DNA of 44,821 bases from Phycisphaerae bacterium. GTDB taxonomy: Bacteria > Planctomycetota > Phycisphaerae > UBA1845. Numbering within the stretch: position 1 is the first letter of the stretch; every line of letters begins with the position of its first letter. Under the pieces are notes generated by a model. It did no database searches. It was not told the origin of the DNA and saw nothing but the letters and a program-made list of their open reading frames with translations. Where the stretch lies: positions 1 through 44,821 of the forward strand of contig JAJDDT010000037.1 of NCBI GenBank assembly GCA_029260165.1. Direction: 5' to 3'. This document shows positions 1,293 through 32,919 of this stretch, in pieces. Position numbers and translations under genes: made by a program.

Positions 1293-3593
1293 ATGACCGC
1301 AGTTTGTTCGCGAAAAGCGTACCACGGCGTGTTGACCGGTGTCTTTGTCATGGCCTTCATGGGCGGTACGACCAGTGCACAGCTGATTACCGGCGCTTGC
1401 TGCAATTCGAACGGTACATGCAGTAACGGCGTGACCGCCATCGGTTGCATCTTCAGTGATGGGATTTTTCAGGGAGAAAACTCACTTTGCAGCAATACAG
1501 ACTGCCGGGGTGCCTGCTGTCTCGGGTCTTCCTGCGTCAACGATCACACCTCTGCCTCATGCAATGGCATACCGCTGGGGCGGTTCAAGGGGCCGCAGAC
1601 GAGTTGTAGCCAGGTCGCCTGCACGGGGGCGTGCTGTAGTCAGTTCGGCGAATGCGTAAATAGCACAACATCGCTGAATTGCAGCCTATTTGCGGGAAAC
1701 TACCTCGGGGACGGATCGACTTGCGATGAGAGCACCTGTGTCGGCGCCTGCTGCTTTCTCCCCCTCATGGGCAGTTGCACGGTGACAACCGATAACGAAT
1801 GTGCCTTTTCTTCGGGCAGCTACCAGGGTAATGGAAGTGATTGCTCCGCGTGCGACGGGGCATGTTGCCTTGACGACGGATCGTGTTACGAAACTACGTC
1901 GATTTCCTGCACGGGGTTCTTCGGTGCCGGCGGCAGTTTTCAGGGTAGGGGAACCGACTGCGACACTGTCACCTGTGCACCGGCCGGGGCTTGTTGCTTT
2001 GATGGCGAAGCTTGCCAAACTCTCACAGAAGCAGCGTGCTCTGAGGCGTCGGGAGAGTACCAGGGAGACGGAACAACGTGCCAGGAAACCTGCTCGGGAG
2101 CATGCTGCCTAACCGACGGGCAATGCCTGGATCGAGTGTTTTCCGCCCTTTGTGATGGGCTGCAGGGATCCTATCAGGGCGATCGGTCGACCTGCGCCGA
2201 ATCATGCGCGGGTGCCTGCTGCCTGCCCGACGACGAATGTCTGTCGGGTCTCACCGCTCATACCTGCCTGACATCCCTCGGTGGGCGTTACCAGGGCAAC
2301 GGCACAGAGTGCGACGGCGGAGCGTGCCCCTTCTTCAGTTGTCCAGGTGATGGGGAATGTTGCCTGGCGAACGGAACGTCGGGCTGCCTCAACAGAAGTT
2401 GCTGTGAGTCCGTCTGCAACATTGCACCCACATGCTGCATCGATGGTTGGACCCAGTTCTGCGCGAATATTGCGGAGGATGTGTGTGGGAATCGCTGCAC
2501 GGCCACGGGTGCCTGCTGTCAGTCCACCGGTGGTTGCGCAGATGGCAGGACGGCTGTTGGTTGCGATCAAACCGGTGGCATTTGGATAGGTCCCGGCTCG
2601 ACCTGCCAGTTCTCCATTTGCCGATACGGCGCCTGTTGCGTGGGAGGCGGCGAGTGCATCGATCGCTTCAACCCCATCAGCTGCATTCTGAGGCATGGAC
2701 AGTATTTCGGCGACGGGAGCATTTGCGTCGATTCGTTCTGCCCGAATTGTCCGGGGCTGGGAAATTGCTGCGAAGCCAACGGCTCGATCAGTTGTGTGAA
2801 CCAGGACTGCTGCGAGACCGTTTGCAGCAAGGATGACTACTGCTGCGATACCGAGTGGGACGGCATCTGCGCGGATGAGGCGGCGCAGCTTTGCGGCAGC
2901 GCTGCTGGCACCTACTGCGTAATTCAGGGATCGTGCTGTTTGCCCAACGCTACATGCGCTGAAGGGATGACGCAGGGCGATTGCGAAGCTGCCAGGGGAC
3001 GCTTCAACGGTGCCGGCAGTCAATGCTTCCTGACGAACTGCGAGTTTGGCGCGTGCTGCGGCGATGAGGGAGTTTGCCTGAACGACGTCAATCGCCTTTC
3101 ATGTTTGGTCAACTTCGGGAGTTTTCTGGGCCACGCCAGCAACTGCGTCGAGGCATCTTGCCCGGAATGTGCGGGCGATGGAGATTGTTGTGCAGCCAAC
3201 GGCAGCCCAGGTTGCAGTGATGCGTTGTGCTGCCACCGCGTGACGAACATCGCTCCCGATTGCGGATTTGGTGATTGGGACGAGACTTGCGCCGAACTGG
3301 CTGGCTGGGTCTGCGGATCCGGAGACCGAACCTATTGCGAAAGTTGCCCCGGGCAGGGTGATTGCTGCACAGGCAACGGTACGCCTGGATGCGAAACCGA
3401 AGCTTGCTGTGCCAACGTTTGCGCGGTGGACCCGGCATGCTGCACGACAGGATGGGACGATCTTTGCGCCATCAAGGCGTCACACCTGTGCGACAATTGC
3501 GGATGCCCGGATGTCGGTGACGTTGACGGTGACTGCGACGTCGACTTGCACGATTACTCGGTCATCCAGGACGCGTTTACGGGGCCGAGGTGA
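1293..3593 (+). CDS. secreted Cys-rich repeat protein with C-terminal half dockerin
   Basis: 766 residues. A signal peptide is clear at 1-30 (hydrophobic VLTGVFVMAFMGG, then TTSAQ). The body consists of about twelve units opening with GACC or GSCC, each with a QGDG/GNGT-like turn and closing cysteines. Interleaved are four units of a second family with CCxxNGxxxC, a CCxxVC pair and a WDxxCA segment. The last residues, GDVDGDCDVDLHDYSVIQ then AFTG, have D at loop positions 1, 3, 5, 9 and 12, as in one dockerin calcium loop; the second loop of a full dockerin is missing. GAGGAG lies six bases before the chosen ATG; an upstream in-frame ATG at 1266 would bury the signal peptide. The very high cysteine content implies a disulfide-rich extracellular protein. 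Biochemical function is unknown; a structural or adhesive surface role is inferred. Confidence 0.85.
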   Translation: MTAVCSRKAYHGVLTGVFVMAFMGGTTSAQLITGACCNSNGTCSNGVTAIGCIFSDGIFQGENSLCSNTDCRGACCLGSSCVNDHTSASCNGIPLGRFKGPQTSCSQVACTGACCSQFGECVNSTTSLNCSLFAGNYLGDGSTCDESTCVGACCFLPLMGSCTVTTDNECAFSSGSYQGNGSDCSACDGACCLDDGSCYETTSISCTGFFGAGGSFQGRGTDCDTVTCAPAGACCFDGEACQTLTEAACSEASGEYQGDGTTCQETCSGACCLTDGQCLDRVFSALCDGLQGSYQGDRSTCAESCAGACCLPDDECLSGLTAHTCLTSLGGRYQGNGTECDGGACPFFSCPGDGECCLANGTSGCLNRSCCESVCNIAPTCCIDGWTQFCANIAEDVCGNRCTATGACCQSTGGCADGRTAVGCDQTGGIWIGPGSTCQFSICRYGACCVGGGECIDRFNPISCILRHGQYFGDGSICVDSFCPNCPGLGNCCEANGSISCVNQDCCETVCSKDDYCCDTEWDGICADEAAQLCGSAAGTYCVIQGSCCLPNATCAEGMTQGDCEAARGRFNGAGSQCFLTNCEFGACCGDEGVCLNDVNRLSCLVNFGSFLGHASNCVEASCPECAGDGDCCAANGSPGCSDALCCHRVTNIAPDCGFGDWDETCAELAGWVCGSGDRTYCESCPGQGDCCTGNGTPGCETEACCANVCAVDPACCTTGWDDLCAIKASHLCDNCGCPDVGDVDGDCDVDLHDYSVIQDAFTGPR

Positions 3594-3637
3594 GGGAGTT
3601 CCTCGGACACACAAGAACCGCATAGAGCCAACGGGTA

Positions 3638-3844
3638 TCAATCCGTGGCGCGAACGTACCGAATCGTGCCTGTTTCAGGCCCCGCTCCTTCGTACATCGT
3701 GCCGGGTTTCTCCATCACGCGGATGGACGGCTTCAGGTGGGGACAGGTGTCCGACGTCAAAATCCGCACGCCCGACTGACGTTGCATCCAACCGGTCATC
3801 GCCGTCATCGCTTCCGTGACGTATCCGGATTTCTGAAACGCGTC
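3638..3844 (-). pseudogene. unidentified gene fragment, C-terminal part
   Basis: The minus strand carries about 68 codons that read like real coding sequence (AMTAMTGWMQRQSGVRI, TSDTCPHLKPSIRVMEKPG, GTIRYVRATD) and end at TGA 3640-3638. The frame continues upstream only into the antisense of the aconitase-tail repeat, so it is cut at the repeat boundary near 3844. A short piece of the same coding sequence (AITGWMQR) recurs at 900-923, between the IS66 end and copy 1 of the repeat. I do not recognise the protein family. It looks like debris from a recombination event. Confidence 0.4.
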
Positions 3845-3910
3845 GAGGTCGAATACTACCGCCACGGCGGCATCCTCCAATACGTCCTGCGAAACCTGGC
3901 AAAGTCATGA
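3845..3910 (+). pseudogene. aconitate hydratase C-terminal remnant, copy 2
   Basis: Twenty-one codons plus TGA, identical in protein to the end of copy 1 ([18 protein letters not shown]). The upstream half seen in copy 1, with RIDTPVEV, is replaced here by unrelated sequence. It cannot encode a functional enzyme. Confidence 0.65.
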
Positions 3911-3960
3911 CGCCTCGCGACCCAAGCACCCCGAAGGCAACGCGTGTGTCCCCCGAACTC
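3845..3960 (+). repeat. 116-bp direct repeat, copy 2
   Basis: Second copy of the repeat at 984-1099, 115 of 116 bases identical. It sits between the Cys-rich protein gene and the protease gene. The rest of the gap, 3961-4151, shows no convincing gene; it probably holds the leader of the protease gene, but I see no clear promoter. Confidence 0.95.
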
Positions 3961-4151
3961 CCGACTCGCCCTCCCGCGAAGACTCCGCCGGAAGTATCAC
4001 GGAACCGGCCTCGCGGGGTTATCGGGTCCGAACGACTGCGCTTGAACCGAGGGGGGTTTCCGGGCACAATGGGCGGTCTCAGGTTCGACGGGGTGTGGTC
4101 CCTGTAAGCCGGGCCTGTCAATGGTGATAAGACGAGATTGGGGTGAATCAT

Positions 4152-6779
4152 ATGGTGGCGGGAGTCAGGTATGCGGCCGGGCTTTTGTGTTCGGCCTGGG
4201 ATCGGCGGTTTCTCGTCATCCTCATATCGGTCATTCTGCCCGGGACAGCCTTCGGATATGACGATGGCGAAAAGCCTCGTCGACCCTATATATCAAGCAC
4301 TAAACACGCAAACGACGCTGACACTGATTGGGTCGGCCCCATAGGTCCGATTGCGGTGCCAAACGGGAAATCGAATCGGGCAACTGGCATCGCGACTGTC
4401 AAACCTGTTCCCGCGCAGCCTGCGGCGGCGGGTCCGGTCAGCGTTCTTGTCCACTTCGCTCCGGTCGCGGGAGCTGTGACCCGTCGGGTCGCGGCTGAGC
4501 GGCGGGACGGGGTCCGCACCTGGGCTGCCGGTGTCGGTGGACACATCAAATACGAATATAAGACCGTTCTTACAAATGTCATTAACCTGCGTAACATTCC
4601 ACCGGCCCGACTTCGGGACCTCAGAACGTTACCGGGCGTGGTCAAGGTCGAAGAAGACCGGATCATGCACGCCTACCTCACTGTGAGCACGCCGCTGATT
4701 CGGGCGTTGCAGAGTCAGATCAGCGGGGCCGGACTTTCCGCGGACGGAAGCGGCGTTCGGGTGTGCGTGATTGATACCGGCATCGACACGGACCACATCA
4801 TGTATTCGGCCCGGATCGACACAGCTGCGGGTCGCGATTTCGCGAACAACGACAACAATCCCGAAGACGACAATGGCCACGGTGCGAACGTCGCCGGCAT
4901 CGCGGTGGGCGGCACGGGGATTTCGGATACGCGCTGCGCCGTTTCGACCACGCTGCAGGGAGTCGCCCCCGCTGCGACCCTCATCGGCATCAAGGTGCTG
5001 GATTCGGCAGGGAGTGGGTTCAATTCGGATGTGATCGCGGGAATTGATTATGCGGCGGATCAGACTGCGGCCGGTGGTCGTTGCGATGTGATCAACCTGA
5101 GTCTTGGCGGCGGGGTGTTTGCCGGAACGTGCGACGGTGACAGCTCGGCCATCGCGGTCAACAACGCCGAAGCCAACGGTGTCGTGGTCGTGGCCGCGGC
5201 GGGTAACGAAGCCAACGCCAACGCCATGGGGTCGCCCGCGTGCGCGTCCGGAGCCATCGCGGTTGGGGCAGTGTTCGACAATGATTTTCCCAACTGCGAA
5301 AATCCCGAGTCCAGCTTTGCGTGGTGCGGAAATGCATCATGCACGACGACCTTGTGTACAGATACAAACATTACCCTGGACTCGCTGATCTGCTTCAGCA
5401 ATCGAAGCGACCAACTCGACGTCACCGCACCGGGCTGCGTCGCCACGTCTGCAGGCACTGCTGCAGGGGGAACGACCTTCGCGGGCCAGTGCGGAACCAG
5501 CCAGGCGTCACCCCATGTAGCCGGCTTGGCTGCACTGTTGCTCAGCGTTGATTCAAATCTCACCCCTGCCGACGTTCGTCAACACATCCGCGACGGAGCG
5601 ATTGATATGGGACCGGTCGGTTTCGATATCGGATACGGGTTCGGACGGGTGGACGCGATCAATTCGCTTTCCCTGTTGGCTCCCTGCATGACCAACATCG
5701 ATTGCGACGACGGCGATAGCTGCACGGTCGATGTCTGCACGAGCGGGTCATGCTCCAACACGCCGATGAGTTGCCCCGCCGGCCAGGTTTGCGTCGGGGG
5801 CATCTGCGAAGGGCAGGGGGCGTGCTGTGCAGGTGCCTTTTGCAGTATCGATACCTCGGCGGGCTGCTCTGTTTCGGGTGGAGCCTATCTTGGTGATGGT
5901 ACGGTGTGTGGCAGCGGGACGGCTGGCAGCCCGACGATTTATCAGAACTCACCGGCGGTGATGATCCCTGACGGTGGAGGCGCTGGAAACCCCGTCACCG
6001 ACACGATCATCGTCCCGGACTCGTTTCCCATCGGCGACCTGAATGTGGGGGTCACGATCACGCACACATGGGTGGGCGATCTGACTGTGACGCTGTCCCA
6101 CGGCGGGACTACGGTGACGCTGATTGATCGACCGGGTGTTCCTGCGTCGGGATTCGGATGCGGCGAAAGCAATTTCGCGGGGATCATCCTCGACGACGAA
6201 GGAACAGGCGGCAATATCGAGTCGCAATGTGCCCCCAATCTGACCTCTCCGCCGAACTATACACCAAACAACGCACTCAGCGCGTTTGACGGAATGGATT
6301 CTGCGGGCGACTGGACGATTACGGTCTTTGATAGCGCGACGCCCGATCCCGGAACGTTGGACGCGTGGTCACTTCACATTGATGGACTCGGCTCCAACCC
6401 GTGTACGGCGCAATGTCTGATCAACGCCGATTGCGACGATGGCGTGTTTTGCAACGGGGCTGAAACTTGTTCAGGCGGTTCATGCCAGTCCGGACCGGCC
6501 GTGTGTACCGCCTCGTGCGAGCACTGCGACGAAACAGCGTCAGCCTGCGGGCTTTGCTCCGCCGATCTGGATGGAGACGGAACGATCGGTGCGAACGACA
6601 TCAGTATGTTAACCGGTTGTTTCGGCGATTGTTACGCCCCGACCGACTTCTGTGCGGCTGCCAATGTGGACGGCGATGCAGGCGGATGCGTCGGAACGGG
6701 AGATTACTCGGTACTTGTTGGATGTATGAATCAGGCTTGTGGGGCGTGTTCAAATTGCACCGGCCCGCCCGGGGGTTAA
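4152..6779 (+). CDS. secreted subtilisin-like serine protease with P-domain and dockerin
   Basis: 875 residues from the ATG at 4152; GGGG at 4140-4143 may serve as its ribosome site, and a GTG at 4143 is an alternative start. A signal peptide (LVILISVILPGTAFG) is followed by a propeptide-like region to about 190 (LPGVVKVEEDR). The S8 peptidase domain spans about 200-510 with Asp208 in VIDTGID, His243 in NGHGANVAGI, oxyanion Asn352 in AAAGNEA and Ser450 in GTSQASPHVAG, so the triad is complete. A Cys-rich unit including GACC follows at about 513-590, then a proprotein-convertase P-domain at 593-746 (GDLNVGVTITHTWVGDLTV; GDWTITVFD). A second Cys-rich unit (CDDGVFCNGAETC) and a two-loop dockerin-like domain at 801-869 (ADLDGDGTIGANDISML) end the protein. 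It shares GACC units with the upstream gene and CDDxxFCNG units and the dockerin with the downstream gene. Substrates are unknown. Confidence 0.92.
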   Translation: MVAGVRYAAGLLCSAWDRRFLVILISVILPGTAFGYDDGEKPRRPYISSTKHANDADTDWVGPIGPIAVPNGKSNRATGIATVKPVPAQPAAAGPVSVLVHFAPVAGAVTRRVAAERRDGVRTWAAGVGGHIKYEYKTVLTNVINLRNIPPARLRDLRTLPGVVKVEEDRIMHAYLTVSTPLIRALQSQISGAGLSADGSGVRVCVIDTGIDTDHIMYSARIDTAAGRDFANNDNNPEDDNGHGANVAGIAVGGTGISDTRCAVSTTLQGVAPAATLIGIKVLDSAGSGFNSDVIAGIDYAADQTAAGGRCDVINLSLGGGVFAGTCDGDSSAIAVNNAEANGVVVVAAAGNEANANAMGSPACASGAIAVGAVFDNDFPNCENPESSFAWCGNASCTTTLCTDTNITLDSLICFSNRSDQLDVTAPGCVATSAGTAAGGTTFAGQCGTSQASPHVAGLAALLLSVDSNLTPADVRQHIRDGAIDMGPVGFDIGYGFGRVDAINSLSLLAPCMTNIDCDDGDSCTVDVCTSGSCSNTPMSCPAGQVCVGGICEGQGACCAGAFCSIDTSAGCSVSGGAYLGDGTVCGSGTAGSPTIYQNSPAVMIPDGGGAGNPVTDTIIVPDSFPIGDLNVGVTITHTWVGDLTVTLSHGGTTVTLIDRPGVPASGFGCGESNFAGIILDDEGTGGNIESQCAPNLTSPPNYTPNNALSAFDGMDSAGDWTITVFDSATPDPGTLDAWSLHIDGLGSNPCTAQCLINADCDDGVFCNGAETCSGGSCQSGPAVCTASCEHCDETASACGLCSADLDGDGTIGANDISMLTGCFGDCYAPTDFCAAANVDGDAGGCVGTGDYSVLVGCMNQACGACSNCTGPPGG

Positions 6780-6837
6780 TCAGTGAGGCCAATGTGGCTT
6801 GTGGCACCGCCTTGTTTTTCAGTGAGGAGTAAGAACA

Positions 6838-9093
6838 ATGACAATTCGTAGAACAACGCGATGGATCGCGATCCTTGCGTTGACCATCGCGGTACCGACC
6901 GAGGCACTCGCGGTTATCCGCGTCACCATCCGGCCCATCACGCTTCAATCGGCTGGCCCCTCCGACACCGCCGCGACCCTGCCAACCGCGCAGACGCAGT
7001 ATCTGCCCGGCGAGACATTCGTCGTCGAACTATGGGCACAAACCACGGAAACCAACGGGCTGTCGTCCGTCACCGTGGATATGAGCTTCGTCAATACGGT
7101 CGTGACGGCGCAATCCATCACCCACACCGCCCTGTTCAACGCAGCGGGCCTGTCCACAGGAACGATCAATAATCCCGGTGGTCTGGTGGACAACCTCGGT
7201 GGTTCGCACGTCGCAGCTTCTCCCCCATGTAGCGCCCAGGTGGGACTAACCAACTGGGCGAGGGTGGCTGTCGTTGATATGCAGGCCCTTGCCAACGGCA
7301 CGTCGATCATCCAGTCCGCCGACACCGCGTCGCTGATTCTCGGCACAGCCATCTGCAACGAATTCGGCAATGTGGTACCAGCCGACATCGATTTCGGACA
7401 GGTGACCGTCACCGTCCGGGAATGCTTCAACAACGCCGACTGCGATGACACCCAATTCTGCAACGGACCGGAACAATGCGTCTCCAATGTTTGCCAGGCT
7501 GGCACGGCGCCAAACTGTGCCGACGTCATCTCCTGCACCGACGATAGTTGCGACCCAGCCGCCAGCGCGGGAACCGGAGCCTGTCTCAACGCACCGAATG
7601 ACGCCAACTGCGACGACAACCAGTTCTGCACCGGCGTGGAAACCTGCAGCGCCACGCTCGATTGTCAGGCTGGTACCGCACCGAACTGTGCCGACGCCAT
7701 CTCCTGCACCGACGACAGTTGCGACCCTGCCGCCAACGCCGGAACCGGAGCCTGTCTCAACGCACCAAACGACGCCAACTGTGATGACAATCAGTTCTGC
7801 ACCGGCGTGGAAACCTGCAGCGCTACACTCGACTGTCAGGCCGGTACTGCACCGAATTGCGCCGACGTCATCGCCTGCACCGACGACAGTTGCGACCCTG
7901 CCGCCAACGCCGGAACCGGAGCATGCCTGAACGCACCGAACGACGCCAATTGCGACGACAATCAGTTCTGCACAGGCGTGGAAACCTGCAGCGCCACGCT
8001 CGATTGTCAGGCTGGTACCGCACCGAACTGCGCCGACGTTATCACCTGCACCGACGACAGTTGCGACCCAGCCGCCAACGCGGGAACCGGAGCCTGTCTC
8101 AACGCACCCAACGACGCCAGCTGCGACGACAATCAGTTCTGCACAGGCGTGGAGACCTGCAGCGCCACGCTCGACTGCCAGGCCGGCGCGGCGGTATGTA
8201 CCGCCACCTGCGAACACTGCGACGAGGCTGGTGGCAGTTGCGAGTTGTGCATTCTGGATCTGGATTTCAACGGCGTGATGGGCACAGGTGACTTCGGACT
8301 CTTCTCCGGGTGCTTTGATGGTTGCTACCTGGCGACTGATCCATGTGCCGCATCCAACTTCGATGGCGACCCCGGCATTTGTGTCGGCACGGGCGATTTC
8401 GCGGGCTTTGTCGGCTGCTTCGGGCTGAACTGTGCCAGTTGTGGAAACTGTGCAGGCCCGCCGCCCGTCAGTGCCGCGAGTCAGAGTTCCTCAACAGAAT
8501 CGACGGTCAACATAAGTCTGGTAACCGTCCGTGTGCCGACGGTCGATGATTCCGTCGCGGTACTGCCGCGGTCAGGAACCTCATTCAGGCTCGGTCAGCC
8601 TTTCTTCGTGGAAGTATGGGCGACTCGATCCACGGCTACAAGATGGGACGGCGATGGACTCGCGGCGGTGTTCGTCGACCTGAGCTTTGAGACCGATGCG
8701 CTCATAGTCGAAGAGGTGATCCCCGGCGATCGGATGTCCATGTTCGCCGGCGGCATGATCCAACCAGAGTTGGGCATGGTATCGCAGTTGGGAGGTTGCT
8801 CCAGGCTGGATTCACTGAATCTCGGCGCAATGGGCAACTGGGTTCGGGTGGCCACGCTGGCGGTTCGGTCTCTCGCACCGGGCCTCGTCAGATTTGAAGC
8901 CGGCCCGAGCGATCCGGTCCACGGTGTGGCAATCGTCAATGAACTCGGCAATCTTGACCCGTTCCAGATCGAATTCGGAGCATCGGTCGTAAACGTCGTT
9001 CAGACGCCCGCGATTCATGACGGACAGCGTCGGTTCAAGGCCGGCTCGGTTCCCCGGCAACACCAGGAAGCGAACCCGCGTAACGGTAAATGA
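6838..9093 (+). CDS. secreted scaffold-like protein: two cohesin-like domains, tandem Cys-rich repeats, internal dockerin
   Basis: 751 residues. GAGGAG lies eight bases before the ATG and a signal peptide ends near residue 24 (LALTIAVPTEALA). Residues 25-194 form a beta-rich domain with the pattern LPGETFVVELWA, a WARVAVVDMQAL segment and a closing FGQVTVTV. About 202-450 are four tandem 56-57-residue Cys-rich units plus a partial fifth. About 465-545 is a two-loop dockerin (LDLDFNGVMGTGDF; SNFDGDPGICVGTGDF). Residues 556-722 repeat the first domain type (LGQPFFVEVWA, NWVRVATLAVRSL, FGASVVNVV). The beta domain resembles dockerin-partner cohesin folds in layout, but I could not test this. The gene is followed, after an ATGA stop context, by a protein with the same beta domain, so the two are probably co-transcribed. 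Two such domains and a dockerin in one chain fit a scaffold; this is inference. Confidence 0.8.
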   Translation: MTIRRTTRWIAILALTIAVPTEALAVIRVTIRPITLQSAGPSDTAATLPTAQTQYLPGETFVVELWAQTTETNGLSSVTVDMSFVNTVVTAQSITHTALFNAAGLSTGTINNPGGLVDNLGGSHVAASPPCSAQVGLTNWARVAVVDMQALANGTSIIQSADTASLILGTAICNEFGNVVPADIDFGQVTVTVRECFNNADCDDTQFCNGPEQCVSNVCQAGTAPNCADVISCTDDSCDPAASAGTGACLNAPNDANCDDNQFCTGVETCSATLDCQAGTAPNCADAISCTDDSCDPAANAGTGACLNAPNDANCDDNQFCTGVETCSATLDCQAGTAPNCADVIACTDDSCDPAANAGTGACLNAPNDANCDDNQFCTGVETCSATLDCQAGTAPNCADVITCTDDSCDPAANAGTGACLNAPNDASCDDNQFCTGVETCSATLDCQAGAAVCTATCEHCDEAGGSCELCILDLDFNGVMGTGDFGLFSGCFDGCYLATDPCAASNFDGDPGICVGTGDFAGFVGCFGLNCASCGNCAGPPPVSAASQSSSTESTVNISLVTVRVPTVDDSVAVLPRSGTSFRLGQPFFVEVWATRSTATRWDGDGLAAVFVDLSFETDALIVEEVIPGDRMSMFAGGMIQPELGMVSQLGGCSRLDSLNLGAMGNWVRVATLAVRSLAPGLVRFEAGPSDPVHGVAIVNELGNLDPFQIEFGASVVNVVQTPAIHDGQRRFKAGSVPRQHQEANPRNGK
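7441..8190 (+). repeat. tandem coding repeat, period 168-171 bp
   Basis: Equivalent TGC/TGT codons recur at 7441, 7609, 7780, 7951 and 8122, giving one unit of 168 bp, three of 171 bp and a truncated fifth. Each full unit encodes CDDNQFCTGVETC, CQAGTAPNCAD, CTDDSCDPAANAGTGAC and LNAPNDA; the first unit is more divergent. Differences between units are mostly synonymous, so homogenisation or recent expansion is likely. Confidence 0.95.
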
Positions 9094-9113
9094 GACGTGA
9101 CGGAGACGACGAA

Positions 9114-9860
9114 ATGCCCGCGATGAAGCTTAATCGCAAGAACCCGTGTCTCCCTTTGACACGAGCAATACTACTCGCGGTGGTCATTGCGTGGTCCACC
9201 CCGGCAGTCGGTCGGGGCGGCACGGTCGCATCAATCGAACTGGTTCCGTTGCTCACTGCCGGTCCCGGCGACACCACGACCACCCTGCCCTCGCCGTTGA
9301 TTCAGGTCGCCCCCGGCGAGCCGTTTGTCGTGGAGATATGGGCACGAACGGGCAATTCCCAGGGTATTTCGTCCGCCTCGATGACCATTCAGTTCGACCC
9401 GTCCGTTGCAATCGTCACCAGCGTGAACCACACGACACTCTTTTCATCACTGCCCAACGGCGAGGTGGACAACGTTGCAGGGCTTGTGGTGGGGTTGAGC
9501 GGGTCACACCTGAGTACCTGCGCCGATCAGGTCGGCGTTATGCCAACCTGGGCCCGCGTCGCTGTTCTCGACATGCAGGCCGCCGATTCGGGTTCGCTCG
9601 TCGTGACCTCTGCCGACACCGGAATCATCGCCTTCGGAACCGCCATCTGCGGCGTGGGTGATCTCCTGCCCTCTCAGGTGGCCTATGGTGCCGCGACACT
9701 CACCGTCACCGGTCCGCCCATACCAACCGTGTCGCAGTGGGGCCTGATCGCCCTGACCCTGATGCTGCTGACGGCGGGTACCATCATCATCAAACGACGA
9801 TCACTCCCGATCGGTCGGGGGCGATCGTTTCGATTAGAACAAGGCGCTGTTCGACTGTGA
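9114..9860 (+). CDS. cohesin-like secreted protein with IPTL-type C-terminal sorting signal
   Basis: 248 residues from the ATG at 9114, which has GGAG eight bases upstream; an ATG at 9090 overlapping the previous stop would add acidic residues before the signal peptide (RAILLAVVIAWSTPAVG). The body, about 30-200, is homologous to the beta domains of the preceding protein (APGEPFVVEIWAR, PTWARVAVLDMQAAD, YGAATLTV). The C-terminus has IPTVSQWGLIALTLMLL, a transmembrane stretch and KRR, matching the IPTLxxWG-type sorting signals that are thought to retain proteins at the cell surface. Unusually, 19 residues follow the basic cluster (ending GAVRL). The last 27 bases overlap the 3' end of the convergent tadC gene. 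It could be the surface anchor for the dockerin proteins encoded upstream; that is inferred. Confidence 0.8.
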   Translation: MPAMKLNRKNPCLPLTRAILLAVVIAWSTPAVGRGGTVASIELVPLLTAGPGDTTTTLPSPLIQVAPGEPFVVEIWARTGNSQGISSASMTIQFDPSVAIVTSVNHTTLFSSLPNGEVDNVAGLVVGLSGSHLSTCADQVGVMPTWARVAVLDMQAADSGSLVVTSADTGIIAFGTAICGVGDLLPSQVAYGAATLTVTGPPIPTVSQWGLIALTLMLLTAGTIIIKRRSLPIGRGRSFRLEQGAVRL

Positions 9861-10772
9861 CATTTCGTACATCCGCATGGCCGCGGGTCCGACGAGAACG
9901 ACGAAGAGCGCCGGAAAAATGAACAGAATCAGAGGAGCCATCAATTTGACCGCGACTTTCTGCGCTTTTTCCTCGGCGGCTTGACGACGCTTCGTTCGCA
10001 ACGCGTCCGCCTGATGACGCAGCGCCTTACCAACGCTTGTACCAAACCGCTCGGCTTGATTGACGATGGCCACCAGCGATTTCATTTCGGACACCTGCGT
10101 TCGCTCTGCCATGTTGTCGAGCGCTTCGTTTCGCGGGATTCCCATCTGAGCTTCACGGGTCGAAATCTGAAACTCCTCGCTCAATTCCGGGTGGACATTT
10201 CGCATTTCGTCACCAACGCGTTGCAAAGCACCATCAAGAGCGAGACCGGATTCGACGGTGATCACCAGCAGATCAAGCGAATCGGGCAACCCTTCCCGAA
10301 TGGAATTCCCGCGTTTCTTTGTCGCCGAAGCCAACCAGATATTTGGCGCCATAAACCCCAGTGCTGCTCCGAAGAGTGACATGCCCACAATGTTGCTTGC
10401 GCTGTTCCCGCCATTGAATGCATAAAATGCAACGGCGATGCCTCCGAGAACGGCAAGGACCGACTTGCTCGTGAGGAATATCGTCGTGACGTTTTCCTTG
10501 CGAAACCCGGCGGACGCAAGTTTGATGCGGATTTTGGACATCTCTGCCGAGTTTTTCGGCATCACCGGTCTTATCGCGATCGGCGCGACCTTTTCCAGCA
10601 TCCTTGCCGCTACGGAGCTTTTGGCTTTTTCCTGCATTTCCTCGCGTTCGCGGGTCCTGCCGGACATGCGACGGGCGACGGTGTCGTGCTCTTCGTTCCT
10701 GCCCGACATCAACGCGTAGATCGTCAAGCCGATACTGGCCACTGCCATTATGATCAGGACTGGTAATGTCAT
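9834..10772 (-). CDS. tadC: Tad pilus inner-membrane platform protein TadC
   Basis: 312 residues of the GspF-like TadC family. It has an N-terminal membrane segment, a soluble part (VAPIAIRPVMPKNSAEM; KLASAGFRKEN), two membrane segments, the family core GLPDSLDLLVITVESGLAL with ALQRVGDEM, and a C-terminal membrane helix (LILFIFPALFVVLVGPA). TadB and TadC form the inner-membrane base on which the TadA ATPase acts to polymerise Flp pilin. An AGAGG lies seven bases upstream, and the gene starts ten bases after tadB. It is the last gene of its unit, and its 3' end overlaps the convergent plus-strand gene, with no terminator hairpin in between. Confidence 0.92.
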   Translation of the reverse strand: MTLPVLIIMAVASIGLTIYALMSGRNEEHDTVARRMSGRTREREEMQEKAKSSVAARMLEKVAPIAIRPVMPKNSAEMSKIRIKLASAGFRKENVTTIFLTSKSVLAVLGGIAVAFYAFNGGNSASNIVGMSLFGAALGFMAPNIWLASATKKRGNSIREGLPDSLDLLVITVESGLALDGALQRVGDEMRNVHPELSEEFQISTREAQMGIPRNEALDNMAERTQVSEMKSLVAIVNQAERFGTSVGKALRHQADALRTKRRQAAEEKAQKVAVKLMAPLILFIFPALFVVLVGPAAMRMYEMSQSNSALF

Positions 10773-10782
10773 AGCAAACCTC

Positions 10783-11778
10783 TCAAACCTTGATGTTCAC
10801 AATCCAACGGATCATAGCCATTCCCATCAACTGCATACCGAAGGCAATCATCAGCATGATCTTGCCGGCGGAGTTTCCGATCATTTCGTCGGCGTAGTTC
10901 GGATTCAGAACCACGACGGCTCCGAAGACAACCGTGGGCAGCAGGAAAAGCACCCATCCCGATAGTCGGCCCTCGGCGGTGAGTGCCTGCACCATGCCGT
11001 ACAGCTCGATGCGTTCGCGAATGACCGACCCGATCTTGTCGAGAATCTCGGCGAGATCACCACCCGTCTGCCTTTGGATGAGGACCGCCGTGACAAAGAA
11101 CCGTACATCGAGCGAGTCGACGCGATCAGCCATGCTGAGCAAGGCGTCTTCCATCTTGATTCCCAGGTTTTGCTCATGGAACACCCGTCCGAATTCTGAT
11201 CCACACGGGTCCGGCAGTTGATCGTGGACAACTTCAAAAGCACTGGCGAGCGAATGGCCTGCACGAAGTGCCTGTCCCATGATTTCAAAGACGTCCGGAA
11301 GTTGTGTAGTCAAACGCTTGAGCCGTCGCGTTCGCAGCCAGTTCAGCCAGGCCAATGGCAGCAGCATCACCGCGATTGATCCGACCGCGCCGACCATGGG
11401 GTGCCCATTGAAGATGATGACGCCGAAGAAAACCGCGATGGCGAGACACGCCTGGTTGACGAGTAATTTCGTGGCAGTCCAGGGCACGCAGGCCTGGTCA
11501 AGCATACCCTGAATCTTCGGCGTAAAGGAGAGCGCTGCGATGGTCCCCGCAAGAAACCCGTCGTCCGTATTCTCTCGCTTGAGGATGGAACTTGACGAGA
11601 AGTCTTTCTTTCCGGATTGCACCCCGCGCAATCGATCGGACAGTTTCTTCTTATGGTTTGTTTTCGAGTCGGTAATGACCTGGTAGATACCGTAGGCCAG
11701 CAGAATCGACCCAACCATTGGAAAGACAGCAAACGCAAACGCCTTTCCCGAAGCCAGCAAATGAATCGTCGGTTCCAT
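10783..11778 (-). CDS. tadB: Tad pilus inner-membrane platform protein TadB
   Basis: 331 residues of the GspF/TadB family: N-terminal membrane helices (FAVFPMVGSILLAYGIY), a second pair around 110-145, the core LPDVFEIMGQALRAGHSLASAFEVV, then QTGGDLAEILDKIGSVIRER and two C-terminal helices. I start at the ATG at 11778 (MEPTIHLL); three GTG codons precede it in frame. It lies between tadA (74-bp gap) and tadC (10-bp gap), in the canonical tadA-tadB-tadC order. Confidence 0.92.
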   Translation of the reverse strand: MEPTIHLLASGKAFAFAVFPMVGSILLAYGIYQVITDSKTNHKKKLSDRLRGVQSGKKDFSSSSILKRENTDDGFLAGTIAALSFTPKIQGMLDQACVPWTATKLLVNQACLAIAVFFGVIIFNGHPMVGAVGSIAVMLLPLAWLNWLRTRRLKRLTTQLPDVFEIMGQALRAGHSLASAFEVVHDQLPDPCGSEFGRVFHEQNLGIKMEDALLSMADRVDSLDVRFFVTAVLIQRQTGGDLAEILDKIGSVIRERIELYGMVQALTAEGRLSGWVLFLLPTVVFGAVVVLNPNYADEMIGNSAGKIMLMIAFGMQLMGMAMIRWIVNIKV

Positions 11779-11852
11779 CACCACCACCTACCCTTCACGA
11801 CTGCGGTATTGATTGAGCAGTATTCTCTTGTCATTATTCACTGCCCCTCTTG

Positions 11853-13268
11853 TCAATGCTTGTCTGTTGCCAATACTTGCTGTTCAAAAATAGATTGGTC
11901 CACGACGGAACCGTGGGCCTTCAGATGTTCGAGAAAACCCGGTCGCAGGCCGGTTGCGACGAACTGGCCCCATACTTTTCCCTCCGGCGTGGTGCCTTGC
12001 GGCTCGAATTTGAACAGATCCTGCATGGTGATGATTTCACCTTCCATGCCTTGTACCTCTGTAATGGTCGTGATTTTTCGAGCACCGCCGTTGAGTCGTT
12101 GCGCCTGCACAATCAGATGGATCGCGGACGAAAACTGTTGACGGATCGCACGAGTGGGCAACTCGAAGCCAGCCATCATGACCATGGTTTCGACACGTTG
12201 CACGGCATCACGGGTGCTGTTCGCGTGAATCGTTGTCAGCGAGCCGTCGTGCCCGGTGTTCATCGCCTGGAGCATGTCGAGTGTTTCGGAGCCACGACAT
12301 TCACCCACCACCACGCGATCCGGACGCATCCGCAGCGCGTTAATCAAAAGGTCGCGGATGGCGACCCGTCCCTTGCCTTCGATGTTCGGTGGTCTTGTCT
12401 CCAGTCGCACCACATGCGGTTGCCGCAATCGAAGCTCGGCCGCATCCTCAATAGTAACAATTCGGTCTGTCTCGGGAATAAATGATGAAAGATTGTTCAG
12501 CAATGTTGTCTTACCCGAACCGGTACCACCGACAATGAGCACATTGAGCGCGCCTTTGACACAGGCTTCGAGAAAGTCGCGCATTTCCGTCGTGCAACTA
12601 TTGTAGTTGATGTAGTCCTCCCATGTGATCGGGTCAGCACCGAAACGTCGAATGGACATGCTCGGACCGTCGATGGCGAGCGGCGGGATGACGGCGTTGA
12701 CACGACTGCCGTCCTTGAGTCGTGCGTCGACCATCGGTGAGATTTCGTCACAGCGTCTCCCGACAGAGCTGACGATCTTGTCGATGGCGTGCATCAGATG
12801 TGCGTCGTCGCGAAACTGCACCTCGGTAAGTTCGAGCTTTCCGCCTTTTTCGATGTAAATCTGTTGCGCACCGTTCACAAGGATGTCACTGATGTCGGGA
12901 TCGCTTAGCAACACTTCAAGCGGACCAAGCCCGAATGTTTCATCCAGCACTTCGCTGACGAGCCGCTTTCGCTCATTGAAGCTGAGAAGGGTATCCTCCT
13001 CCTCCGCCAAATTGGCTACGACTTCGCCAACCATGGATCGCAACTCGGCGTCGTCACCTTCCAGCGCGGTCAGGTCGAGCTTTTCCACGAGCTTGCGGTG
13101 AATCCGCGATTTTAGTTCATTGAAGGCATCAAGCTTGGAACGACTTGTCTGAGACCGTGGCCCACCCGGTGTCTTGACCGGTGCAGACTTTACAGGGGGC
13201 TTGGGCGGAGATGGTGCAGATGCCTTTGGCGGCGGTGATGGTGCGGTTTGATTTGAGCGTCCAAACAT
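11853..13268 (-). CDS. cpaF: Tad/Flp pilus assembly ATPase TadA (CpaF)
   Basis: 471 residues, close to the usual size of CpaF-type secretion ATPases. The first 45 residues are Pro/Lys-rich and probably disordered. Then come the N-terminal helical domain ([20 protein letters not shown]), the Walker A motif GGTGSGKT at 247-254, the Asp-box region ([13 protein letters not shown]), and [26 protein letters not shown] with the His-box. The protein hydrolyses ATP at the inner-membrane platform to drive pilus assembly. AAGG lies just upstream of the ATG. It is second in the cpaE-tadA-tadB-tadC unit. Confidence 0.95.
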
Positions 13269-13367
13269 ATCCTTACCCCTTTACGATGCGTCGCACTGTA
13301 TAGACCGTTATTGTTACGTTCATCAGATTCGGCATGTGCAGTTCATGTTCCATCATTGATCTCTCCA

Positions 13368-14561
13368 TCATGCCTCATTGAAAATCTTGCTAAGGAATTT
13401 CGATCCGGTTCGCGACGCATCGGGTGACCCCGGGGCGACCGTTTCCGGTGCGTGTATTCTGACGGCGAGGTCGCTGATCGCGGTGCGGACCCTGGACTTG
13501 GGATCACGCGTCACGAGCGGTTCGCCGAGGTTGACGGCTGCCCCGACGGTAACAACGTCTTCGGGGATGGTGGCGAAGACCTTTCGATCGAGAGTAGCTT
13601 CGACATCCGCAACGGTGAGTGACCCATTGTCACGTCCGATGCGGTTGCAAAGGAGCTTCGCACGTTCGGGATTGAACCCCGCCTCTTCCATACCCTGCAA
13701 TATACGTTGTGCGTTGCGAACCGCCGGAACGTTAAGTTGCATGACCAATAAGGTGACGTCGGCGAGATCGAGAATAGATGAGGCACCGACATCGTACCGG
13801 TTCGGCCCATCAATAACGACGTATTGATTCATGGTGAGCAATGTTGACAATACCCCGACGCAGTTGGCGGCTGTAATGTTGTCGGACTGTGTGAAATGCG
13901 TCGGCCTGCTAAGGACGTAGGTTCCCGATTCGTGCTGAACAAGCGTGCGTTCAACGACCTGCTCCTCGAGTCTCTCATGTGAATGGGCGAGATCGGCAAT
14001 GGTATAGTTTGGGTTCAGATCGAGCATTGTGGCGACCTGTCCGAACCGATAATCGAGATCAACGACAGTGACACGTCCGGTACAGATGCTCGACAATTCG
14101 ACGGCCAGGTTCGTCGCCAGACAGGTGGTACCAACCCCACCAGCCGTTCCCAGGCAGGCGATCATGCGCCCTGACGTCTCTCCCTCGTCACCGGACTGAG
14201 CGATTTTGCCAAATGCGTCCTTGAGCAAATTCTCATCGATCGGCTTGGTCAGGAATTCCTTGACGCCCTGACGCATGGCCGAAAGTATGAGTTGTCCGTC
14301 GGTCGATTCGCTGACCGCGAAGATGTTGAGGTTTGGGTGGTGGGGGATCAGTTGTCCCGCCATGGGAAGGACAGCCTCAGGATTGGGATCGAGGTGGACA
14401 AATAGTACCTCGGCGGGAATCTGCTCAGCCACATGTGCGAGCATGGCAGGCTCGTCAAGCTCAGCAACGATTCGTACATTCTCAAACGACATGAGCGTGT
14501 TGCGCAGTGTCGCGTTATACGATTCGTCAGCGTTGAAAAGAATGACCCGGACGGTCCCCAT
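13368..14561 (-). CDS. cpaE: Tad pilus localisation protein CpaE/TadZ
   Basis: 397 residues. Residues 1-120 form a response-regulator-like domain (VRVILFNADESYNATLRNTL; EFLTKPIDENLL), and 132-370 a MinD/ParA-like ATPase domain. The P-loop reads GTAGGVGTT at 138-146, so the lysine of the deviant Walker A motif is not in its usual place, as in many TadZ proteins. VTVVDLDYRFGQVATMLDL and YVVIDGPNRYDVG are further ATPase motifs. TadZ/CpaE places the pilus machine in the cell. I chose the ATG at 14561, with GGAG nine bases upstream, rather than the longer frame from 14612. First gene of its unit, directly after a strong terminator of the preceding unit. Confidence 0.9.
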   Translation of the reverse strand: MGTVRVILFNADESYNATLRNTLMSFENVRIVAELDEPAMLAHVAEQIPAEVLFVHLDPNPEAVLPMAGQLIPHHPNLNIFAVSESTDGQLILSAMRQGVKEFLTKPIDENLLKDAFGKIAQSGDEGETSGRMIACLGTAGGVGTTCLATNLAVELSSICTGRVTVVDLDYRFGQVATMLDLNPNYTIADLAHSHERLEEQVVERTLVQHESGTYVLSRPTHFTQSDNITAANCVGVLSTLLTMNQYVVIDGPNRYDVGASSILDLADVTLLVMQLNVPAVRNAQRILQGMEEAGFNPERAKLLCNRIGRDNGSLTVADVEATLDRKVFATIPEDVVTVGAAVNLGEPLVTRDPKSRVRTAISDLAVRIHAPETVAPGSPDASRTGSKFLSKIFNEA

Positions 14562-14721
14562 ACTGCGGTCACTCCGGTACCGAAGTCGAGCGTTTGGCTG
14601 CAAATACCGCAATCACGCCTACGGACGCGACGCGCTCACAACCTGCTCTCCTATTCGGCGTTTACTCGCCTCCACTCCCCGAACATCATTGGCTGTCATG
14701 CACGATGTCCCCGAAAAGCAT

Positions 14722-14768
14722 AAAAAAACCGGGGCGGGGTGCGGTCCGAAAACCCACCCCGCCCCCGG
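14722..14768 (-). terminator. rho-independent terminator after the tadG-like gene
   Basis: Read on the minus strand, a GC-rich hairpin (CGGGGGCGGGGTGGG against CCGCACCCCGCCCCGG, loop around TTTTCGGA) is followed by a run of seven T (plus-strand a's at 14722-14728). It begins a few bases after the stop of the upstream gene and separates the flp-tadV-tadE-cpaB-tadG unit from cpaE-tadA-tadB-tadC. Confidence 0.88.
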
Positions 14769-14774
14769 CGAGCG

Positions 14775-16694
14775 TTAGTTGATTAGTTCGACAGGTCGTT
14801 TCCCACCGAGCCTCATGAAGATTTCCTCCAATTCAGCCTGGTAAGTTGCGATGTCGTTGCTGGTAGCCTGGAGGTGTTCACCACCTCCGATGGCCGCGAC
14901 CTCCTCCATGAGGCCTGCGTCAGCGTAGGCACCCACGCTGACGGCGAAAATCCGATAACCCAGATCAGATGCAATTTGCGCCTGATCGAGCACATATTGC
15001 CTTGCCGCAGCAAGAATATCCTGCTGATCCGCCCAGGAACCAGACGGATACTGCCCGGTCGGCGTGATGTTCGCGTTTCCATCAGTTAGCAACACGATCA
15101 TCTTATGGGACGCGCTGCGTGCCGCCGTCCCGGACAACGTCTCAATACCATACGAGAGACCACCACCCATGTTGGTCCAGCCATCGTAGTGGCCTGCCTG
15201 CATCTGCGTGAGCCCGTTACTGCCGGTTGAAATATCAAACAGATCAGGATTTGAAACCAACGGTACCTGGTGACGCATCGTGTAACCGTAGATATCGAGT
15301 GCCAATTGGTCGTCGTTGTCAAAACTACTGACAACATCAACCATCAGCTCGACGGAGTCCTTGACCGCCTGCATCGGCTGACAAGGTGTGTCAGCCAATT
15401 CGGGCGTCTTGCTGTTCGACCACCGCTGCTCCAACAGGTAATCGGTAAACGTCTTGGGACCGAAGCAGTATCGGAAATTGCTATTGGCACTCGTCATGCG
15501 CGACCACGACGAAGCAGCCCAGTTGATGTAGTCAAGCCATCTCGAGCCAGGCTCACCGAAGAACGATTCGATGTACTCGATTTCATAGCTATCGATACGA
15601 TCATCGCCGTTACCAGGAGACGCCCCCGGCACGGATTCCCACGCGCCACCGGTTTTTCCGCTGTCCCAACGGGCAAGCCCGAGGGCAACAGCAACCTGTC
15701 GCCTGTAACGAGAGTAACTGGAATGGTGGCCCGTATTGAGAATCTGCGCAGTCTCCTCCGGACTGTATTGGGCACCACCACTGAATTGGATGTTGCTGAG
15801 GAACCCGCTCACCGTCGCGCCGGTCCAGTCGCTTTGACCGCTGCCATAACGCGGCAGTCGGATCAACCCCGAATCGGCGGCAGGATCGTAGCCGTCGGTG
15901 AACGACTCATCACCCCAGCGCGATTCCTGGAAAATTCCCCAGGCTGGTCCGGCAGACTGAGAGTTGAATCCCTCACCGTCCAGAGCGAGACCGGCCAGGC
16001 CCGCCGGGGTCCACATGGAACCTGCATCATCCGAACCGCCCGGCAGTGCAGCCCAGACGTCCCAGATGTTGATGGTTGTATCCGCATAGCTGCCAAGCTC
16101 GCTGTCATCGTTGTGCGAAGCTGACAGGTCAGCCACGATCACGATATCACGAGGCACGAGCAGCGCGGTCGCTTCCGCGGTCATCGTGCGCTCGTTTCTT
16201 CCGAAATAACGAGCGAAAAACAGCTCTCTTGTAGCAGACACACGAACCGTAACGGCGTCCGGGAATTCGGAATCCGCAACCTCGGAGAATTCGTATTGTC
16301 CGCCGACGAGGTTGGCTCTCCCGAGCGTGATGTCACCCACACCAACGGTGACAGGATCGTTCACAACGTCGTTGTGTACAACGTATTCCTCCGCAGCGGC
16401 ACGAGCGAGGTTTGGTCCACTACTGCCCTCGCCCAGCATCGCTGCTGCCGCGAGCGCGGCTGCGTCCGCAGTTCGCTGCAAATCTGCCCTGACGTTCCAT
16501 AAATACCCCATATCGACGACCAACGCAGCCATTCCAATCATGATCGTCGAGACGGTCATGACTTGAACGGCGATCACACCTCGACGGCGCGTCGGTCTTC
16601 GGGGCCGCATTCGCCGGCAACCGTCACTTCTCCCAACCGTCAAGCGGCCGAGACCGGTGGCAGTATGCCTGTCACTTGCTTTCCCATAAACCAT
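14775..16694 (-). CDS. TadG-like pseudopilin with interrupted von Willebrand A domain
   Basis: 639 residues. An Arg-rich cytoplasmic stretch precedes a pilin-like membrane helix (RRGVIAVQVMTVSTIMIGMAALVVDMG) and the Tad family segment LQRTADAAALAAAAML. A von Willebrand A domain starts with IVIVADLSAS: the MIDAS residues DxSxS are at 189-193, the MIDAS Thr at 507 (GWTNMGGGL) and Asp538 in LLTDGNAN. The helix that normally follows DxSxS (PMQAVKDSVELMVDVV) starts only near 440, so about 240 extra residues are inserted there, with many Trp, Tyr and Gly. GGGAGG lies eight bases before the ATG at 16694. TadG is a minor component anchoring Tad pili in the envelope. The insert may be an exposed adhesive module; this is inferred. 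Confidence 0.85.
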   Translation of the reverse strand: MVYGKASDRHTATGLGRLTVGRSDGCRRMRPRRPTRRRGVIAVQVMTVSTIMIGMAALVVDMGYLWNVRADLQRTADAAALAAAAMLGEGSSGPNLARAAAEEYVVHNDVVNDPVTVGVGDITLGRANLVGGQYEFSEVADSEFPDAVTVRVSATRELFFARYFGRNERTMTAEATALLVPRDIVIVADLSASHNDDSELGSYADTTINIWDVWAALPGGSDDAGSMWTPAGLAGLALDGEGFNSQSAGPAWGIFQESRWGDESFTDGYDPAADSGLIRLPRYGSGQSDWTGATVSGFLSNIQFSGGAQYSPEETAQILNTGHHSSYSRYRRQVAVALGLARWDSGKTGGAWESVPGASPGNGDDRIDSYEIEYIESFFGEPGSRWLDYINWAASSWSRMTSANSNFRYCFGPKTFTDYLLEQRWSNSKTPELADTPCQPMQAVKDSVELMVDVVSSFDNDDQLALDIYGYTMRHQVPLVSNPDLFDISTGSNGLTQMQAGHYDGWTNMGGGLSYGIETLSGTAARSASHKMIVLLTDGNANITPTGQYPSGSWADQQDILAAARQYVLDQAQIASDLGYRIFAVSVGAYADAGLMEEVAAIGGGEHLQATSNDIATYQAELEEIFMRLGGKRPVELIN

Positions 16695-16847
16695 GCTTTC
16701 GCCCTCCCGCGAGCTTGAATTCCTCGCGTCGTATTGTTTTGCCACGCTCAACGAAATGCCGAGCGAGCGGCCTTTTCAAAATAGTGCTCCACCGTCGACC
16801 ACTGCCGTACAGCAAACCGAGGCGAACAACTCCAGGGAGCGAAACCC

Positions 16848-17855: not shown

Positions 17856-17970
17856 CGCTATCCTCGCGATCGCCCCAGCAACGCTGCGGTTGCGTCCATG
17901 GTCTCACCCCAACGACTGAAGCTGCTCGTGTCCCAAAAATACGATTTTCAAACGGTTGGACCAGCCAACC

Positions 17971-18411
17971 CTACGGTATGGCAACGGCTGCGAAGCCCTC
18001 CTTGCGCATCGAGCAGGTGCCGCTTATCGAATAACTGCCACCAGTAAGCACATAGCCACCCGTGATCGAAATCCGCTCGATCGGAGCCGAAACCGTCACA
18101 GTCTGCATTTCGTTCGCGATCGGCGAGGCATCGAAGGTCCAGACGGTTCCTTCTTCGTAGCCAAGCGGATCCATCACCTCACGCACACGAATGGCAACAT
18201 CATCCTCGGTAGATGCTTTCAACACAGCCGTGCGGCATCCTTCGCGCGCTGCATTCGTCAGCGTCTGCCGAACTGTAAAGACCCAGCCAAACTCGACGAT
18301 TCCCATAAGGATCGCCAGGAGAAGTGGGAGAACCACCGCGAATTCAACAAGCGTGGCACCACGTCGTTTTCGCGGATAACGACGTAGCCCATTTTGTATT
18401 AATCGTCTCAT
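17971..18411 (-). CDS. tadE: Tad pseudopilin TadE
   Basis: 146 residues, the usual TadE size. The N-terminus is basic (RRYPRKRRG) and is followed by the TadE signature ATLVEFAVVLPLLLAILMGIVEFG and a hydrophilic domain with TNAAREGCRTAVL. TadE-type prepilins are cleaved by TadV and are needed for pilus biogenesis. The start codon is two bases from the tadV stop, which indicates co-translation. Confidence 0.93.
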   Translation of the reverse strand: MRRLIQNGLRRYPRKRRGATLVEFAVVLPLLLAILMGIVEFGWVFTVRQTLTNAAREGCRTAVLKASTEDDVAIRVREVMDPLGYEEGTVWTFDASPIANEMQTVTVSAPIERISITGGYVLTGGSYSISGTCSMRKEGFAAVAIP

Positions 18412-18412
18412 T

Positions 18413-18967: not shown

Positions 18968-19023
18968 GATCGTGACCCCCAAGTCAGGAAACTGTACTCA
19001 AACAAACGATTCAGACACAAAGG

Positions 19024-32874: not shown

Positions 32875-32919
32875 GACGATGGTGTACGGCAACGAGGCAT
32901 GACGGTCAATCGACGCGAA

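Follow-up and report, generated by a model that had tools for sequence, protein, structure and literature searches.

A candidate three-gene cohesin–dockerin module with a subtilase client and an IPTL-CTERM anchor signal in a Phycisphaerae bacterium

Genes and modules of the locus

The window, meaning the whole stretch of DNA that was analyzed, is an entire contig of 44,821 bases (JAJDDT010000037.1; G000:C50) from a Phycisphaerae genome of 4.43 Mb in 119 contigs. On its + strand, four secreted-type open reading frames (ORFs) follow one another, P1 (1266/1293–3593), P2 (4143–6779), P3 (6838–9093) and P4 (9090–9860), as an earlier note on this DNA had described; their signal peptides were assigned by eye. 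About 550 bases lie between the end of P1 and the start of P2, 58 bases separate P2 from P3, and the stop codon of P3 is overlapped by the start codon of P4 (4 bases). The subject of this analysis is the set P2–P3–P4, a candidate cohesin–dockerin system composed of a protease, an adaptor scaffold and an anchored cohesin.

P4 contains a single beta domain (9210–9725), and P3 contains two copies of it, CohA at the N-terminus (6910–7425) and CohB (8503–9009), on either side of an internal dockerin-like segment. This arrangement, which the earlier note had read from the sequence, is borne out by alignment: the three modules align with seven domains from two relatives, with 14 invariant columns, and CohA is 43% identical to the P4 module. 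The AlphaFold2 model of the P4 module, for which this alignment was the input, has a predicted local distance difference test score (pLDDT) of 91.2 and a predicted template modeling score (pTM) of 0.87. When the model was compared with the PDB in Foldseek, rows 1–34 were all cohesins or scaffoldin chains of cohesin entries (top row 5lxv_C, 2.5e-8). Re-alignment with VIA-align places such chains in rows 1–36 at Z 12.0–15.1, with 2vo8 at the top (Z 15.1, root-mean-square deviation of 2.2, 132 residues aligned). Row 37 is a protein–protein interaction module of a clostridial GH84 enzyme and row 38 is the first adhesin, which at Z 11.9 ties with the lowest cohesins and lies 3.2 below the top value. 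The earlier proposal that these beta domains are cohesin-like agrees with this outcome, as cohesins come first in both structure searches. The P4 domain is, by its predicted structure, a cohesin-fold module, and the two P3 modules are assigned to the same fold through their homology to it. A relative of the P3/P4 domain also occurs in the same genome in a 1250-aa protein (locus L093) whose chain carries a Pfam Cohesin match (7.3e-12). Because the cut-off of Pfam Cohesin (PF00963) is not reached in P4, and P3 has no match to it at E 1, the domains are referred to as cohesin-like modules.

Between CohA and the internal dockerin-like segment of P3 (8209–8454), a spacer of Cys-rich repeats (7426–8208) can be read. 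The segment is homologous to one at the C-terminus of P2 (6516–6761); both are Cys-rich, 82 residues long and 52% identical to each other. Each is an internal duplication, as the real repeat-to-repeat score was reached by 8 of 2000 shuffles for P3 and by 0 of 2000 for P2, and three further segments gave the same result. The first loop has the canonical D-x-D-x-D/N...D pattern. A GTGD[FY] motif is common to both P3 repeats and is also found in the second repeat of P2, at what we take, from the type I family, to be the position of the dockerin recognition residues. When 20 such segments were combined into a profile, hhalign matched it across both loops to 30 of this genome's 42 Dockerin_1 hits (probability 83%, P 9.1e-6); a single Cys-rich P3 repeat, used as a control, gives no such alignment. 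Since Pfam Dockerin_1 misses the segments even though this profile–profile alignment reaches the genome's own dockerins, they are termed dockerin-like; on these sequence features, P2 and P3 each carry a two-repeat, Cys-rich segment of this kind. P3 as a whole has no family at E 1 in Pfam or NCBIfam, and these two libraries alone would therefore miss the system. Profile searches of PDB sequences gave nothing below 0.075 and provide leads only: a scaffoldin C cohesin ranks first for the cohesin profile (weak, E 0.075), and the dockerin of a cellulosomal GH48 enzyme for the dockerin profile (also E 0.075), whose lower rows hold calmodulins, a coronavirus spike (1.4) and two other dockerins (1.7 and 1.8). 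With phmmer, P4 has one chance-level match among PDB sequences (0.062, a leucine-rich repeat protein) and P3 has none.

The proposed client, P2, is a secreted S8 subtilase with a P-domain (Pfam Peptidase_S8, 1.7e-46, 288 of 288 positions; P_proprotein, 6.7e-9). Its catalytic motifs can be read as VIDTGID, NGHGANVAG and GTSQASP, with D, H and S present. At the other end of the set, the IPTL-type anchor signal that the earlier note had assigned to P4 (9720–9782), which is followed by the remaining hydrophobic stretch and a basic tail, passes the cut-offs of both Pfam (21.7 versus 20.8) and NCBIfam (22.5 versus 20.5), and each of the six P4 proteins of the window type has an [IT]P[TA]xSxWG tail. 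Nine IPTL-CTERM signals and six exosortase matches, five of them above cut-off, are present in this genome.

P1 (1293–3593), a Cys-rich repeat protein, was considered as a second client and rejected. It has one calcium loop (DVDGDCDVDLHDY, 3519–3557), which amounts to half a dockerin; the stop codon follows 11 residues on, and no second loop is found in frame. At E 1e-60, a cut-off that would overlook distant relatives, P1 has no match in the other 50 family genomes (1 of 51, its own genome). Locus L005 retains P2–P3–P4, and the ORFs that precede P2 there do not resemble P1. It is because of the single loop and the lack of such a match in the 50 other genomes that P1 is placed outside the system. 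The earlier note had given dockerin-like ends to both P1 and P2 and had imagined an anchored scaffold holding a protease together with a disulfide-rich fiber protein; P2 has the two repeats and gene order supports the pairing of protease and anchored cohesin, whereas the part assigned to P1 is dropped.

Conservation and related cohesin clusters

Among 51 family genomes, seven P2 orthologues (the window included) are found at 76% identity or more, in six genera. All seven have the dockerin segment and an adjoining P3, and P4 comes next in six of the six loci in which the contig continues. The P2–P3–P4 order is thereby the same in six genomes (the window, L131, L125, L126, L127 and L128); in the seventh, G311, the contig ends after P2 and the start of P3. 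L005 and L131 are apparently the same contig (29,429 bases), as are L006 and G160:C20, and each was counted once. In the five others compared, identity to the window is 73–80% for P2 and 56–68% for P4, and the distance from the end of CohA to the start of the dockerin-like segment ranges from 155 to 433 residues across the six complete window-type P3 proteins. The conservation of a four-gene order, suggested in the earlier note as a check, thus holds for P2–P3–P4 and does not extend to P1. A protease client linked to an anchored cohesin is supported by this gene order in six genomes and one locus cut by a contig end. Where named, the contigs with related proteins come almost entirely from planctomycete metagenome-assembled genomes, many of them labeled Phycisphaerae.

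The scaffold genes and the protease are also found apart. In L006 (NC_groundwater_1039), P3 and P4 are kept and the preceding gene encodes a propeller protein of the Rax2 type that carries Doc and CohB; the scaffold pair is therefore also found beside another client. Among the S8 paralogues, three complete ones (G204:C5, G220:C31 and G188:C103; 57–61% identity by blastp) have no such dockerin and do not lie beside P3 or P4. This comparison covers the complete paralogues of loci L156, L161 and L162; contig ends truncate those of L154, L155 and L163, and G317:C220 was not included.

To place the modules, a tree of 61 domains was built, a selection for which the loci of the 25 class genomes with cohesin-type (profile A1) matches were fetched in part. 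Domains with E above 1e-6 or fewer than 90 model positions were dropped beforehand, and two labels were hand-corrected from architectures; the program warned of two long rows (L094_6007 and L135_5411) and of long branches meeting. One clade of 21 (support 96/97) unites the N-terminal modules of P3 with the P4 modules of the window type, and 11 modules that follow a Cys-rich dockerin, the CohB type, form a separate clade (100/99). The P3/P4 module set thus appears to comprise two cohesin subtypes. Seven more modules labeled as following a dockerin-type loop fall in two other places, and the position after a dockerin is therefore not one lineage.

Further Coh–Doc–Coh proteins are encoded on contigs C15 and C107 of the same genome. 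The C15 cluster includes a 267-aa single-module protein with paired dockerin-type calcium loops at the end where P4 has its IPTL signal, a loop pair on which Pfam makes no call. C15 (L091) and G263:C499 (L133) hold a second four-gene cohesin set whose gene order differs between the two genomes; its members are a Coh–EF loop–Coh protein, a small cohesin protein and a large protein that end in calcium loops and in a loop pair, respectively, and a cohesin protein that has a dockerin at its terminus. Another conserved trio, on G000:C24 and G071:C20 (L093 and L158), consists of an FG-GAP propeller with a Cys-dockerin, an A-type cohesin scaffold and a small protein with terminal calcium loops. Pfam calls Cohesin in the L093 scaffold (7.3e-12) and scores it below cut-off in the small protein. 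In the tree, the scaffold cohesin of C20/C24 groups with the A clade; it adjoins a client that bears a Cys-dockerin. In addition, an ORF at 2–5191 of L159 (G000:C28), read by eye, has FG-GAP-like repeats, CxxCH motifs, calcium-loop pairs and a C-terminal cohesin-looking stretch.

G071, which belongs to the genus of the window and has a best A1 match of 1.6e-27, encodes a dockerin-bearing homologue of P2 (61.5%); the surrounding 18 kb contain no cohesin match. The dockerin of this protease is 63–65% identical to those of the FG-GAP clients beside the C20 and C24 scaffolds, with which it has an insertion in common; its identity to the P2 and P3 dockerins of the window is 44 and 53%. This single case hints that the dockerin type of the protease may follow the available scaffold.

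Across the class, where at most 12 (A1) or 18 (Cys-rich dockerin profile, A3) candidates per genome were scored, 25 of 298 genomes have an A1 cohesin at 1e-6, 17 of 298 have a Cys-dockerin at the same threshold and 12 have both. When the Cys-dockerin threshold is tightened to 1e-14, nine of the 298 genomes remain, and every one of them has an A1 cohesin. Outside the class, with at most 10 candidates scored per genome, the A1 profile reaches 1e-10 in 12 further genomes of 343, mostly in frames longer than 1,100 aa. Weak A1-type matches are also seen in other classes of the phylum (G366, G386, G491, G533, G543 and G597), at least 5 to 9 per genome, in frames of up to 6,358 residues.

Predicted assembly, alternatives and genomic surroundings

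From sequence and structure prediction, P2–P3–P4 is proposed to be a three-gene, non-cellulosomal cohesin–dockerin assembly, a reading that is considered reasonably probable. P4 would be exported and its IPTL-CTERM tail passed to an exosortase, for which candidate XrtH-like enzymes are present, so that one cohesin stays fixed at the envelope. P3, which has cohesins at both ends, a Cys-rich spacer and a dockerin of its own, would act as an adaptor: captured by the anchored cohesin, it could capture further dockerins and possibly form chains with other copies of P3. The C-terminal dockerin of P2 would then plug into a cohesin of P3 or P4, and this docking would keep proteolysis at the cell surface. 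We infer the dockerin–cohesin binding, the anchoring reaction and a purpose in surface peptide degradation, and the A-type cohesins, at the N-terminus of P3 and in P4, would be those that receive Cys-rich dockerins.

Several observations weigh against such an assembly. At the level of the domains, P4 scores below the Pfam Cohesin cut-off (E 2.2e-4, 21.9 versus 24.1), Dockerin_1 has no match in P1–P3 at E 1 or less, and the second dockerin loop has N at the first ligand position and a two-residue insert. The helices after the loops are visible only in a low-confidence model of Doc–CohB (4 sequences; pLDDT 47.1, dockerin about 30), in which the interface is not readable. Three of the five scanned exosortases are best matched by the XrtH model TIGR04177, at 62.9, 68.4 and 77 bits, below its cut-off of 86. 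The set is also patchy: G160 has P3–P4 and no P2 match at 1e-60, and the protease is therefore not obligatory, and neither G071 nor G220, which belongs to the genus of G216 and G204, has a P3/P4-grade match. The S8 paralogue of G220:C31, which lacks the dockerin, has C107-type cohesin genes at distances of about 1 and 9 kb, a case that also counts against a simple rule that dockerins follow scaffolds. Finally, among the 17 genomes in which A3 reaches 1e-6, five lack an A1 cohesin at that threshold (best A3 there, 1.6e-11), and the co-occurrence of the two domains is inflated because of shared ancestry and because both lie within P3.

One alternative is that the cohesin-fold modules have lost dockerin binding and act as beta sandwiches for adhesion or carbohydrate binding on a surface fiber, with the dockerin-like pair serving as a calcium-stabilized spacer or sorting tag. 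The fold is common to adhesins (SspB, Z 11.9; AspA, 11.2; SpaP, 10.9), and the 42 Dockerin_1 matches of the genome far outnumber its Pfam Cohesin matches (4) and A1-type matches (12), an excess from which it follows that many dockerins may have other ligands. Even so, the top 36 structure rows are cohesins, though the lowest tie with adhesins, the protease dockerin is linked to cohesin genes in seven of seven cases, and the G071 protease dockerin resembles that of the scaffold cluster remaining in its genome; the loss of binding is considered unlikely. It is somewhat easier to imagine, though still doubtful, that within P3 Doc and CohB fold together as a single cis unit, comparable to the X–Doc pair of cellulosomal scaffoldins, in which CohB is structural and only the A-type cohesins bind. 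A CohB-clade module directly follows the dockerin in the six complete window-type P3 proteins, in ORF1 and ORF2 of L006 and in L129, L130 and L132, and these are the 11 members of the single CohB clade. Against this, the Doc–CohB model gave neither a confident dockerin nor a readable interface, and the seven other modules labeled as following a dockerin-type loop lie outside the clade. Such a unit would narrow the three-gene assembly and would not exclude it.

P2, P3 and P4 could also be adjacent for another reason, such as the shared expression of secreted proteins, and form no assembly. Secreted repeat proteins abound in this genome, and the neighboring P1 has no conserved tie to the set; the order is nevertheless kept in five further genomes with a visible P4, despite the divergence of P2 and P4 noted above, and this explanation is regarded as quite improbable. 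The proposed assembly may have a wider counterpart, put forward here tentatively: a family-wide planctomycete toolkit of cohesin–dockerin modules that can be exchanged for one another, in which exosortase-anchored single cohesins and Coh–Doc–Coh adaptors would build disulfide-rich surface chains of tunable length, and in which clients (the subtilase, FG-GAP and other propellers) might dock anew after a change of scaffold by exchanging one dockerin type for another.

The remainder of the window holds other functions. Convergent with P4, Flp/Tad pilus assembly genes lie on the − strand at 9834–18982 (T2SSF, T2SSE, an AAA_31 ATPase, Tad/Tad_C with VWA, RcpC/CpaB and an A24 prepilin peptidase), and a secretin is found at 34095–35897. 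At 25677–32892 (−), a UvrD-type helicase with a PD-(D/E)XK nuclease adjoins an ADDB-like protein, which resembles the AddAB recombination set. A secreted endonuclease I with an LTD domain is encoded at 40522–42546 (−; Pfam 4.5e-32 and 1.7e-10), with two similar LTD-like stretches by eye; no dockerin was seen in its translation. Near the left contig end, an ORF at 291–833 (−) has a weak, sub-cut-off match to a transposase helix-turn-helix.

Comparison with known systems

Among the nearest published systems is the "Planctosome" proposed for Nemodlikiaceae, freshwater planctomycetes, as a peptide-degrading cohesin–dockerin complex (PMC6461901), a sequence-based hypothesis, as is the present one. 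Both are planctomycete cohesin–dockerin systems with a two-domain adaptor, peptidase clients, an envelope anchor and P-domains in the set. The planctosome, as described there, has an LTD-anchored protein of 2,210 aa with P-domains and a cohesin, a HYR-domain adaptor and M12B and M14 peptidases. In contrast, the window has an IPTL-CTERM single-cohesin anchor, a Coh–Cys repeats–Doc–Coh adaptor and an S8 peptidase that bears the P-domain itself, all in compact genes, and Pfam finds no LTD, HYR, M12B or M14 domain in P1–P4. Filing the set under the planctosome was rejected, as these named domains are absent from P1–P4; it would work like one. In a planctomycete genome with so many Dockerin_1 matches, the module is a small testable set of three cohesins in two subtypes, two dockerins, three linked genes and a defined anchor signal. 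If the predicted binding holds, the peptide-degrading machines proposed for planctomycetes would become directly testable, and an exosortase-type anchor would join the known ways of holding a scaffold at the cell.

Other published systems share single features with the set. For Ca. Stygibacter (Cloacimonadota), a complex was proposed in which an S8/S53 peptidase with a C-terminal dockerin pairs with a cohesin scaffold that has a surface-attachment domain (PMC8542988); there, a single scaffoldin of 3,755 aa combines tandem cohesins, carbohydrate-binding modules (CBMs) and a C-terminal attachment domain, whereas the window divides these roles among three smaller proteins and has an IPTL tail. 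Limihaloglobus sulfuriphilus has a Coh2–Doc1–Coh1 scaffoldin (PMC11557425), likewise a presumably non-cellulolytic scaffold of the Planctomycetes–Verrucomicrobia–Chlamydiae (PVC) superphylum with a dockerin between two cohesins; it is a single scaffold with 13 dockerin proteins, and a linked anchor gene or S8 client is not described in the accessible text. A cell-surface cohesin that holds a peptidase is known from Ruminococcus flavefaciens, in which binding of a peptidase–dockerin by the anchoring cohesin ScaE was measured (PMC5301203), in that case within a true cellulosome and with a cysteine peptidase and the type III dockerin group. Subtilisin-like peptidases are also listed among cellulosomal activities in PMC12484212. 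For P1–P4, Pfam gave no carbohydrate-active enzyme (CAZyme) client and no CBM; no CAZyme search was made genome-wide. The non-cellulosomal use of cohesin–dockerin pairing foreseen in the earlier note remains the proposed reading, and as an idea it is not new, having been put forward in PMC6461901 and PMC8542988. An IPTL-anchored cohesin was not found described in the titles and abstract openings of the open-licence papers surveyed. What the present set would add to the prior proposals, as judged from its sequence, is a compact module of three genes in which cohesins of two subtypes occur together with an exosortase-type anchor, and a hint that the protease may take the dockerin type of whichever scaffold is available.

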